From: Nocardioidaceae bacterium
Lineage (GTDB): Bacteria; Actinomycetota; Actinomycetes; Propionibacteriales; Nocardioidaceae
Length of the DNA: 64,000 bases
Direction: 5' to 3'
Assembly: GCA_029266455.1 (NCBI GenBank)
Contig: JAQSWV010000033.1
Span: forward strand, 1-64,000
Shown here piece by piece: positions 4,934 through 46,103 of this stretch (within the stretch, counting starts at the first letter, position 1; the number at the start of each line of letters is the position of its first letter). A program made the translations under genes and the position numbers. The notes under the pieces were generated by a model. That model did not search any database and was not told the origin of the DNA. It saw only the letters and a program-made list of their open reading frames with translations.

Positions 4934-5965
4934 ATGCCCATCGCCAGTCCCGAGGTCTACGCGCAGATGCTCGACGCCGCCAAGGACCGATCCTTCGCCT
5001 ACCCGGCCATCAACGTGACGTCGTCGCAGACGCTGCACGCGGCCCTGCGGGGCTTCGCCGAGGCGGAGAGCGACGGCATCGTGCAGGTGTCGACCGGTGG
5101 GGCGGAGTTCCTCTCGGGCGCGACCGTCAAGAACATGGTCGCCGGCTCGGTGGCCTTCGCGGCGTTCGCGCGGGAAGCGGCGAAGCAGTACCCGGTGAAC
5201 GTCGCCCTGCACACCGACCACTGCCCCAAGGAGAAGCTCGACGGGTTCGTCCGCCCGCTGCTCGAGCTGTCCCGCGAGCAGGTCGCCGCCGGTGGCGAGC
5301 CGCTGTTCCAGTCGCACATGTGGGACGGGTCCGCAGTTGAGCTCGAGGAGAACCTCGACATCGCCAAGGACCTGCTCAAGGCCGCCGCCGAGGCCAACGT
5401 GGTGCTCGAGGTCGAGATCGGCATCGTCGGGGGCGAGGAGGACGGCATCGTCGGGGACATGGACGAGAAGCTCTACTCCGCGCCCGGCGACGCGGTCCGC
5501 ACCGTCGAGGCGCTCGGTCTCGGCGAGAACGGGCGGTACCTGACCGCGCTGACGTTCGGCAACGTCCACGGCGTGTACAAGCCCGGCAACGTCAAGCTGC
5601 GCCCCGAGATCCTCCAGGAGGCCCAGCGCGTGGTCGCGGACAAGTGGCAGCTCGGTGAGGACGCCAAGCCCTTCCACCTGGTCTTCCACGGCGGCTCCGG
5701 CTCGACCGCCGAGGAGATCGGCGCCGCCGTCGACTACGGCGTGGTGAAGATGAACGTCGACACCGACACCCAGTATGCGTTCACCCGCGCCGTTGCCGAC
5801 CACATGTTCACGAACTACTCGGGCGTGCTGAAGATCGACGGCGAGGTGGGCGACAAGAAGGCCTACGACCCCCGCTCGTACGGCAAGGCCGCCGAGGGGT
5901 CCATGGCCGCCCGCGTCACCGAGGCCTGCCAGCACCTCCGCTCGGCCGGCACCCGTCTCGGCTGA
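4934..5965 (+). CDS. fbaA: Fructose-bisphosphate aldolase, class II
   Basis: Zn-dependent aldolase of glycolysis and gluconeogenesis that cleaves fructose 1,6-bisphosphate to DHAP and glyceraldehyde 3-phosphate. The 343-residue protein has the class IIA motifs HTDHCPKEKLD and NVHGVYKPG (metal and catalytic side), VFHGGSGS (phosphate loop) and VKMNVDTDTQYAFTRAV near the C-terminus. ATG 4934 follows a GGGAG ribosome-binding site at about 4923. A hairpin with perfect 7-bp arms follows the stop at about 5994-6016. Confidence 0.95.
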   Translation: MPIASPEVYAQMLDAAKDRSFAYPAINVTSSQTLHAALRGFAEAESDGIVQVSTGGAEFLSGATVKNMVAGSVAFAAFAREAAKQYPVNVALHTDHCPKEKLDGFVRPLLELSREQVAAGGEPLFQSHMWDGSAVELEENLDIAKDLLKAAAEANVVLEVEIGIVGGEEDGIVGDMDEKLYSAPGDAVRTVEALGLGENGRYLTALTFGNVHGVYKPGNVKLRPEILQEAQRVVADKWQLGEDAKPFHLVFHGGSGSTAEEIGAAVDYGVVKMNVDTDTQYAFTRAVADHMFTNYSGVLKIDGEVGDKKAYDPRSYGKAAEGSMAARVTEACQHLRSAGTRLG

Positions 5966-5991
5966 CCCCTGGCGGCTGCTGCGCCCGGGGA

Positions 5992-6046
5992 GTTTTCGCA
6001 GGGTGGGCTGCGAAAGCGGCACTCCACAGGCGCTGCAGCGCCCGGG
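5992..6046. repeat. Left arm of a 55-bp inverted repeat
   Basis: The left arm matches the reverse complement of 7167-7221 at 47 of 55 positions, the first 20 bases being identical. Inside it TTTCGCA...TGCGAAA forms a perfect 7-bp hairpin, so it may also end fbaA transcription. The pair brackets the AbiEi-like gene at 6076-7062, which suggests that gene and repeats may once have moved as one unit. No flanking target duplication was seen. Confidence 0.7.
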
Positions 6047-6075
6047 AAGCGGCGCTTTCGCTGTGGAAGTGGGGG

Positions 6076-7062
6076 TCAGGCGAAGGTACGCGTCCGGATC
6101 CGTAGTGCCCGCGCGAATCGTTCGACGACGACGTTCGGGGTGAACAACTCAGACCACACCAGTCGTCGGACGACCAGTCCGGTCTCGACGATCCACTCCT
6201 CGCGCTGCTTCTCGCGGATCACGACGTCGCTCGCCGACTCGCCCTCGCGGAGGCTGCGGAGGTACTTCACCTTGCCGTCGAACTCTCCGACCACACGTTC
6301 TTCGTCCCAGCCGTAGTCGGTATAGGCGAGCTGTCCGGACGTACCCAGCACCCGCATCTGCAGCTCGGGCCTAGGCAGTCCACCTCGCCAGAACACGAGC
6401 CGGCCGAGTGTCTCGCCGGCACTCTCCGCTCTGCCGTCCATGAGTCGGGTGGCCAGCCGTACGTGCCGTGACTCCGGCACACGGTTCCAGGACTCGACGA
6501 GCTCGCCCAGCGGCTCGGCCGCGACCAGGCCGCGGAAAAGGGCGGAGTCGGCCATGACCACCGCCTGGTCGAGACCGTGCAGCAGCATCGCCCCGGCGAC
6601 TGCGTGCGCCGGGGGCACGATGAGCAAGTCGGCGTCGTCGACGCCGTCGTCACTGCGGAGACGGACGCACTCGGACCTGGTCACCGCCATCTCGTGGTGC
6701 GCTACGCCGTGCTCATGACCGCCCTGTCGACCGTCGAGCCGGGTCACATGAATGTCGGCGAGCCGAGGTCCCCACGTCTGCACCCCGAGGGCCAGCGCCG
6801 CCGTGATGTGGCTGAGCGCCACCTCGCCGGCGAGGGGGCGAATCACGGCCCGGGCCAGCAGCAGGTGGCGAGCCACCGCATCAGCCGCCTCCCACACAGG
6901 AGTCAGCACGTAGGAGCCGCGCCGCAGCCGGGTCCACTCGCGACGGTCGACGGCGCGCCGGATCCCGCGATGGTCGTACCCGAGCCTGCGTGCGTCCGCC
7001 GTCGTGAACACCTCGTGCTGTACCTCGGCCAGCTGCCTGATCTCCTGGTGTCGCACATCCAC
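6076..7062 (-). CDS. AbiEi-type winged-helix protein with a C-terminal nuclease-like domain
   Basis: The 328-residue protein starts with an AbiEi antitoxin-type wHTH (about residues 8-60: LAEVQHEVFTTADARRLG, then RRAVDRREWTRLRRGSYVL). The last 100 residues contain VVGEFDGKVKY followed by a charged helix and LVVRRLVWSEL. These resemble the DUF559/VSR-like PD-(D/E)XK core found at the end of many actinobacterial AbiEi-like proteins. No AbiEii nucleotidyltransferase toxin is next to it, so it is not a normal type IV toxin-antitoxin pair. It starts with GTG and is enclosed by inverted repeats (5992-6046 and 7167-7221). The function is unknown; DNA binding is likely, nuclease activity speculative. 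Confidence 0.7.
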   Translation of the reverse strand: MDVRHQEIRQLAEVQHEVFTTADARRLGYDHRGIRRAVDRREWTRLRRGSYVLTPVWEAADAVARHLLLARAVIRPLAGEVALSHITAALALGVQTWGPRLADIHVTRLDGRQGGHEHGVAHHEMAVTRSECVRLRSDDGVDDADLLIVPPAHAVAGAMLLHGLDQAVVMADSALFRGLVAAEPLGELVESWNRVPESRHVRLATRLMDGRAESAGETLGRLVFWRGGLPRPELQMRVLGTSGQLAYTDYGWDEERVVGEFDGKVKYLRSLREGESASDVVIREKQREEWIVETGLVVRRLVWSELFTPNVVVERFARALRIRTRTFA

Positions 7063-7166
7063 AACGTTGTCGTTTGCTCAGCGGTCCGGTACGGCGGTCC
7101 ACAGGAGTGTGGAAAGGTCCGTCGCACCCTCGCCGCACCCTCACTACGGCAGCGATAAGTGCGCCT

Positions 7167-7221
7167 CTCGGGTGCTGCAGCGCTCGGGTAGTGCCGTTTT
7201 TGCAGCCCACCCTGCGAAAAC
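7167..7221. repeat. Right arm of the 55-bp inverted repeat
   Basis: This is the inverted partner of 5992-6046. Its core GCAGCCCACCCTGCGA (7202-7217) is repeated once more in direct orientation at 7223-7238, giving three copies of the 16-mer in this locus (the third is inverted, 5996-6011). The arm ends about 50 bp before the DUF3151 gene. Confidence 0.7.
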
Positions 7222-7273
7222 AGCAGCCCACCCTGCGAGAACGACAGCCGCGGCCGGGCGGCAGGATGGGGCC

Positions 7274-7681
7274 ATGACACCCGAGAATCTGCTGGGCGGT
7301 CCGCCGGAGACCCTGCTCGCTTCTGACCCGGCTGCTGAGCCGCTGGACTCCGGGGCCAGCCCGGTCGCGGTGGCGCGGGCCAACCCCACCTCGAGCCTGG
7401 CATGGGCGACGCTGGCCGAGCAGGCGCTCGAGGAGGGCAGGGATGTCGAGGCGTACGCGTACGCCCGCACCGGCTATCACCGGGGTCTGGACGCGCTTCG
7501 CCGCAGCGGCTGGAAGGGGCACGGGCCGGTGCCGTGGGCCCACGTGCCCAACCGTGGGTTCCTGCGCTCGCTCGCGGCGCTCGCGCGTGCTGCGGCCGAG
7601 ATCGACGAGATCGATGAGGCGGAGCGCTGCCGCAGCTTCCTCGCGGACTCGAGCCGGGAAGCCGCCACCGCGCTGCTCTGA
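7274..7681 (+). CDS. DUF3151 family protein
   Basis: The 135-residue cytoplasmic protein is recognisable as DUF3151 from NPTSSLAWATLAEQAL, AYAYARTGYHRGLDALRR and WKGHGPVPW, followed by a helical FLRSLAALARAA tail. Alternating short helices suggest a TPR-like fold. DUF3151 genes usually sit between fba and purA in actinobacteria, as here. No function is known. ATG 7274 is preceded by a CAGGAT hexamer 6 nt upstream, again compatible with leaderless expression. Confidence 0.85.
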   Translation: MTPENLLGGPPETLLASDPAAEPLDSGASPVAVARANPTSSLAWATLAEQALEEGRDVEAYAYARTGYHRGLDALRRSGWKGHGPVPWAHVPNRGFLRSLAALARAAAEIDEIDEAERCRSFLADSSREAATALL

Positions 7682-7719: not shown

Positions 7720-7934
7720 ATGCGGCGGGGGCTGGGAAGTACGGCCGCCCCGAGGAGCGCGACGCCGACACTATGACAAAGGGCGCCGAAACCGTCCCCC
7801 GCGCGGTTTCGACGCCACTCTCAGTGATCATGTCATCTCTGTGCGCGAACGTACAGGGGGCGTTGCCACCGGCGACCCGTAGCCACTCGCCCCGGCCGAG
7901 CCGGCGGCGACATGTACGCCCACCGCCCCGTCCG

Positions 7935-8017
7935 GTCGCCGTCGGATCACCTGGCGAGTCGCCGTCGGATCACCTGGCGAGTCGCCGTCGGCCCACCTGG
8001 CGAGTCGCCGTCGGATC
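7935..8017. repeat. 23-bp tandem repeat, 3.6 copies
   Basis: The unit GTCGCCGTCGGATCACCTGG plus CGA occurs exactly at 7935-7957 and 7958-7980, with a two-base variant at 7981-8003 and the first 14 bases again at 8004-8017. The period is not a multiple of three and the array lies outside genes. It could be a protein-binding array or a simple slippage product. Confidence 0.85.
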
Positions 8018-45356: not shown

Positions 45357-45387
45357 CCCCCTCCCGACGATCCGCGACTTATGCAGG
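45357..45387. repeat. Left arm of a 31-bp inverted repeat
   Basis: It is the reverse complement of 46073-46103 at 29 of 31 positions (core GACGATCCGCGACTT). The two arms enclose the 159-residue gene at 45514-45993. Confidence 0.75.
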
Positions 45388-46072: not shown

Positions 46073-46103
46073 CCTGCACAAGTCGCGGATCGTCGCGAGG
46101 GGG
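46073..46103. repeat. Right arm of the 31-bp inverted repeat
   Basis: It is the partner of 45357-45387. It ends 24 bp before copy B of the regulatory element. Confidence 0.75.

Follow-up and report, generated by a model that had tools for sequence, protein, structure and literature searches.

An AbiEi-type gene enclosed by palindromic elements

The window, a stretch of 64,000 nucleotides from a Nocardioidaceae bacterium, carries between fba and a DUF3151 gene a minus-strand gene that is enclosed by two palindromic elements in inverted orientation. The features of the locus are:

4934–5965, plus strand: fba, class II fructose-bisphosphate aldolase, left neighbour (PF01116, F_bP_aldolase, E = 1e-78)
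5993–6071, plus strand: left palindromic element, just 3′ of the AbiEi-type gene, placed by the alignment of 33 elements and the inverted repeat; end hairpin 5994–6015, central GCGCTGCAGCGC 6030–6041, tail 6056–6071 ending in AGTG
6076–7062, minus strand: protein of 328 aa with an AbiEi-type wHTH, an NTase-like middle domain and a Vsr-like (DUF559-type) nuclease fold, from Pfam AbiEi_4 and the predicted structure
7142–7220, minus strand: right palindromic element, inverted relative to the left one; lies ∼80 nt upstream of the start of the gene; tail 7142–7157, centre 7172–7183, end hairpin 7198–7219
7223–7238, plus strand: third 16-mer, a lone end-hairpin half whose counterpart is retained in a gene-free junction of the same-genus genome G001
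7274–7681, plus strand: DUF3151 gene, right neighbour (PF11349, E = 7.6e-56)

A preliminary description of this locus, made from the letters alone, had reported an AbiEi-like gene between 55-bp arms that match at 47 of 55 positions, and a 16-mer, GCAGCCCACCCTGCGA, occurring three times. Pfam agrees on the gene (AbiEi_4, E = 1.5e-8), recomputing the arms gave the identical figure, and a search of the window places the 16-mer exactly at 5996 (−), 7202 (+) and 7223 (+), with the two remaining matches carrying 3 mismatches each, about the level of chance. The arms had been located correctly and drawn slightly short: pairing extends to 6090 on the left and starts at 7123 on the right, so that 5992–6090 and 7123–7221 match at 77 of 99 positions. 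Aligned as an inverted repeat, the two flanks of the gene score 43, against a maximum of 15.0 across 60 shuffles. The left arm has a single-strand folding z of −2.56, and no Rfam family matched positions 5800–7500. Elsewhere in the window, at 7930–8010 between the DUF3151 gene and a diacylglycerol-kinase-like gene, a short tandem repeat of ∼23 nt (CGAGTCGCCGTCGGATCACCTGG-like) can be seen by eye.

The enclosed protein combines an AbiEi-type wHTH with a Vsr-like nuclease fold

An AlphaFold2 model built from a 29-sequence alignment reached a mean pLDDT of 93.3. Residues 3–209 of the model superpose on the S. agalactiae AbiEi antitoxin (6y8q, Z 10.2) and residues 1–211 on Rv2827c (Z 8.4), while the C-terminal domain (about 210–325) superposes on the catalytic domain of the homing endonuclease I-Bth0305I (3r3p; Z 12.5, rmsd 2.3, 97 aligned), on NGO0050 (3hrl, Z 11.5) and on the Vsr repair endonuclease (1cw0, Z 9.9); the structure comparisons included Foldseek. 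Its earlier description as DUF559-like is borne out by the Vsr/DUF559-type fold of the predicted structure and finds no counterpart in Pfam, which makes no DUF559 call on the window protein. Five residues, E217, D249, E260, D262 and R287, are invariant in all 29 homologues. A Vsr-like fold with conserved acidic active-site residues (E217, D249, E260 and D262) is present in the model, and some of these residues would be catalytic; the motif goes by the name EDxHD.

A Pfam scan of the 29 members finds AbiEi_4 in every one, DUF559 in three and MTES_1575 in four with E no greater than 1, and nothing from a Y1 transposase family; PADLOC AbiEi models likewise match all 29. Neither NCBIfam nor a sequence search of solved structures returned a match to the window protein. 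The protein shares with the AbiEi of type IV toxin–antitoxin systems (Rv2827c and S. agalactiae AbiEi) the wHTH and the second domain, and differs from it in an extra C-terminal nuclease fold, in repeats that are two-sided and genome-wide, and in the lack of an adjoining toxin: no DUF1814 (AbiEii) partner lies next to the window gene, whose neighbours are the aldolase and DUF3151. The C-terminal domain in turn differs from the Vsr, I-Bth0305I and MTES_1575-DUF559 fold on which it superposes by its fusion to AbiEi and its association with repeats. The MTES_1575 domain, of Vsr type, was defined in a different setting in PMC3710099.

Inverted flanks accompany the gene across actinobacteria

Among 80 actinobacterial genome loci, 63 of the 78 homologues with usable flanks have a flanking inverted repeat that scores at least 20 (the 15 others are L087, L088, L090, L092, L096, L097, L105, L122, L125, L130, L132, L138, L140, L141 and L145). 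Control windows from the same loci reach this score in 8 of 4185 cases, and not one of 293 other called genes does so; of the target genes, the simple gene caller recovered 43, and 29 of these reach it. A set of homologues from relatives, which overlaps the 80-locus set in part, agrees: among the 27 with usable flanks, 25 reach the threshold of 20 and L062 (15.0) and L074 (13.5) fall below it, while two extra members, L067 and L071, lie at contig ends. For 51 of 67 homologues the self-complementarity of the arms exceeds that of every one of 50 shuffles. Similar arms (score at least 25) occur in 14 of 2278 homologue pairs, none of them at a protein identity below 44%. Inverted-repeat flanking is general to the gene family, and the sequence of the repeat differs by lineage. 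Additional arm copies inside the homologues' fetched loci were found for 1 of 67, a count that is uninformative since a low density is expected. One locus of the set, L138, lies on a Rhodococcus sp. contig and was displayed in the tree as Cyanobacteriota, probably through a name-parsing slip.

Each genome tested has its own dispersed repeat family

The genome from which the window comes (G000) comprises 3.43 Mb in 128 contigs. The 16-mer with up to one mismatch occurs at 39 places in it, merging into 33 loci, and its reversed-pattern control at none; searching for GCAGCCCACCCWGCGA as an exact pattern gives 37 matches in G000 and none in 57 further genomes, G001 included. The repeats, treated at first as belonging to the gene, are therefore not private to it and form a family of palindromic elements of ∼80 nt. 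A gapless alignment of the G000 elements over 82 columns gives their ground plan: TTTCGCAGGGTGGGCTGCGAAA as the end hairpin, a central GCGCTGCAGCGC with variable sequence around it, and a tail TTTCGC...AGTG. From 39 element rows, 33 entered the alignment; left out were the window's lone third 16-mer and five rows that were each the second end of an element with two ends. Eight aligned elements are two-ended, with the end hairpin on either side, and 25 finish with the tail (scripted tail sorting gave 7 and 26, with one of the 26 being two-ended to judge from the tail printed for it). Among the 25 single-type tails, 20 have AGTG at fixed columns, and GTAG occurs in 5. According to a crude gene caller, 24 of the 33 elements fall outside called ORFs, mostly intergenic, and the elements are hairpin-rich and frequently close to gene ends.

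No covariation beyond shuffles is seen among the variable pairs in the central hairpin: 487 shuffles out of 500 paired at least as well. For this reason the element need not work as a folded strand, and its symmetry may serve protein binding as much as folding. A covarying hairpin acting as structured DNA or RNA is, with these shuffles and no Rfam match, an unsupported candidate.

Dispersal of the gene's own arm recurs in all five genomes tested, G000, G001, G023, G036 and G046, with loci counted by merging the listed places. The G001 arm gave 25 pieces at 17 loci in G001, one weak match in G000 and no match in four further genomes. That of G023 gave 133 pieces at 39 loci at home, two weak ones in G001 and nothing in four more genomes, and that of G036 gave 54 pieces at 18 loci at home and none in five others. 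The G046 arm, with 81 pieces at 40 loci in its own genome, also matched twice in G041 and seven times in G038, and not in four others.

Paralogues of the gene have repeats of their own

Beside its one close copy of the gene, G000 has three distant paralogues at 27–30% identity, AbiEi/MTES_1575-type genes on contigs C55, C98 and C5 (L044, L046 and L045). On either side of each paralogue, inverted to one another, stand arrays of a short direct repeat of its own, which is iteron-like and not palindromic. These repeats too are dispersed in G000: GATCCGCGACTTGTGCA occurs at 138 places, GATCATCCGCGCACTACGAC at 70 and GATCAGCGGCTTGCGGTTGC at 43, against 5, 0 and 1 for the respective reversed-pattern controls. 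Because they are short direct arrays and not palindromes, a single mechanism must cover two repeat shapes. No hidden homologues were found between the other convergent repeat arrays of G000, which enclose ordinary genes.

Among such convergent iteron-type arrays are those at C9 158900–162142 (L276), C64 34000–37400 (L275) and C59 6800–10000 (L277), whose enclosed genes are phosphatase- and PHP-like (names given by eye). Within the window itself, inverted copies of the C55-type 17-mer at 45369–45385 and 46075–46091 bracket a short gene, which lies downstream of a large ORF named transporter-like by eye.

Shared sites generally carry each genome's own repeat type

Of the 17 element loci of G001, eight align with G000 element loci in the sequence outside the element; one is the fba junction, leaving seven others, all intergenic. 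Where both genomes have an element at such a shared site, each generally carries the type of its own genome, and two G001 copies (L311 and L314) are diverged. The mean number of end-hairpin mismatches is 0.40 within G000, 2.15 within G001 and 4.54 between the two, with the within-genome values biased low because elements were selected by likeness to their own consensus (at most 1 mismatch for G000 and at most 3 for G001). Two private types at the same sites are unexpected if shared ancestral elements had drifted independently. On the evidence of the two sequences, the shared sites appear generally to have changed in concert in each genome, that is, to have undergone concerted turnover; independent insertion at hot spots is a possible explanation of the sharing.

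History of the fba–DUF3151 junction

A gene-free fba–DUF3151 junction, as would be expected among relatives if the gene is a cassette, exists in G001 (L304), where two hairpins stand without a gene: TTTCGCAGGGTCACCTGCGAAA, an end hairpin, and one that matches the outer right hairpin of the window. The two junctions align, and are too diverged to reveal a target-site duplication. The G001 homologue is the nearest to the window protein on the tree (51% identity, 100/100) and is located elsewhere than fba–DUF3151.

The preliminary description had considered the gene unexpected in this neighbourhood. That view does not hold: at least three other genomes have homologues there, though these are not one clade. 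In other genera, homologues lie at fba/DUF3151 in L094/L058 and L108, beside DUF3151 in L102, where the flank resembles the fba end by eye, and beside fba in L107. A recent lone insertion at an odd place is thereby ruled out. The fba/DUF3151 homologues required 4 changes for 4 tested rows (L108, being too short, was left out of this test), so the junction was either repeatedly occupied or is ancestral with repeated relocation. The homologue tree broadly tracks host taxonomy. Among 72,556 plasmid records there were 2 weak matches to the gene, and among 50,697 phage records none. The empty G001 junction, together with homologues likewise boxed in across actinobacteria, favours the suggestion that gene and repeats may form a small mobile or domesticated cassette.

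A proposed nuclease-driven repeat system

We propose a REP-like system in which the resident enzyme is a wHTH protein with a Vsr-like nuclease instead of a tyrosine transposase, and would bind the palindromes and nick or cut them, such that repair copies them; we give this reading a probability of about 0.55. It builds on the observed anatomy of the locus, flank association, dispersal, lineage specificity, empty site and co-occupied, species-specific sites, and adds binding, cutting and conversion as postulated steps. Each genome would have one gene copy per repeat family, lying between two inverted palindromic elements, with tens of copies dispersed. The AbiEi-type winged helix is predicted to bind the palindrome from its kinship with AbiEi, since AbiEi antitoxins bind inverted repeats and repress through those in their own promoter, as described in PMC7319586. 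The Vsr/homing-endonuclease-like domain would then nick or cut at or near the palindrome, and repair would copy in the sequence of another element. Repeated cycles could homogenise the entire family and sometimes seed new sites, and the gene cassette could sometimes be removed or relocated. The gene-adjacent copies would keep enzyme and repeat matched, and probably double as operator.

In several respects this resembles RAYT (TnpA_REP) with its REP and REPIN sequences, for which PMC3116915 and PMC8266576 describe a gene beside intergenic dispersed palindromes and inverted doublets, a single gene copy per family, an own repeat for each paralogue and a chromosomal, housekeeping-like character. 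The features found here as well are flanking by own-family palindromes (63/78), dispersal (5/5 genomes), and a single copy without plasmid or phage spread. In contrast, RAYTs have an HUH motif with a catalytic tyrosine where the window protein has an AbiEi wHTH and a Vsr-like fold, and a GTAG tag, which only 5 of 25 elements carry here, with AGTG at fixed columns in 20 of 25. Since the HUH tyrosine enzyme is missing, the window system is not a RAYT, and an enzyme and tag so unlike those of RAYT lead us to expect a different chemistry. TIRYTs and TIRtrons (PMC3733652) offer another likeness, a gene between longer terminal inverted repeats drawn from repeat families, and differ in that TIRYTs are tyrosine transposases.

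More tentatively, and at somewhat less than even odds in our estimation, AbiEi–Vsr-type nucleases would make up a second, independently evolved class of bacterial repeat enzymes, which spread and rewrite palindromes by cut-and-repair conversion, with private repeats in each lineage and paralogues running separate families. The results suggest a previously unnoticed partnership of a DNA-cutting enzyme with repeated DNA; a full-text search of an open-access library turned up no account that links such repeats with genes of the AbiEi, DUF559 or Vsr-like kind. If true, the proposal would supply an enzyme for orphan actinobacterial repeat families, a function for the widespread 'AbiEi antitoxin domain' proteins now taken as orphan toxin–antitoxin parts, and a case of nuclease-driven concerted evolution of dispersed sites in bacteria. 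Because each genome has a matched enzyme–repeat pair, recognition and co-evolution are directly testable.

Alternative explanations

The protein could instead be a genome-wide DNA-binding regulator or architectural protein. In that case the palindromes would be its operators, insulators or terminators, and DNA binding would be all that the nuclease-like domain does. The repression by AbiEi through promoter inverted repeats (PMC7319586), the position of one arm ∼80 nt upstream of the gene start, the 24 of 33 elements outside called ORFs (by the crude caller) and the folding z of the left arm all fit such a role. We nonetheless consider it rather unlikely, because one would not expect operators to flank the gene on either side as inverted copies, or to be replaced wholesale between genomes, and because the nuclease fold keeps its acidic residues unchanged in all 29 homologues. 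A defence or addiction device, in which the nuclease attacks incoming DNA, the palindromes mark or titrate self and the AbiEi ancestry reflects a toxin–antitoxin past, would account for the PADLOC matches and the Vsr-like fold. No DUF1814 toxin directly adjoins the window gene, however, and defence alone does not predict concerted change at dozens of sites, which makes this explanation quite improbable.

The empty G001 junction and the scatter of fba/DUF3151 homologues on the tree (4 changes for 4 rows) would also be produced by a classic mobile unit, composite or MITE-like, whose terminal repeats are moved by another transposase with the AbiEi–nuclease gene as passenger or stabiliser. This too appears improbable: the AbiEi–nuclease gene is the sole gene enclosed, the same family is enclosed by unrelated repeats in many genera, and the genome holds one close copy with next to no presence in plasmid or phage records. 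That ordinary bidirectional terminators or REPs flank the gene by chance might be thought from hairpin-rich elements often found by gene ends, and genome-wide plain terminators without a link to such genes had been named as what would overturn the cassette interpretation. Such an origin fails on the strong link to the gene family, 63 of 78 homologues against 0 of 293 control genes; this gene-flank control rules out plain terminators or bystander repeats, and we regard a chance arrangement as extremely improbable, with lineage-specific repeats accompanying the gene in five of five genomes.
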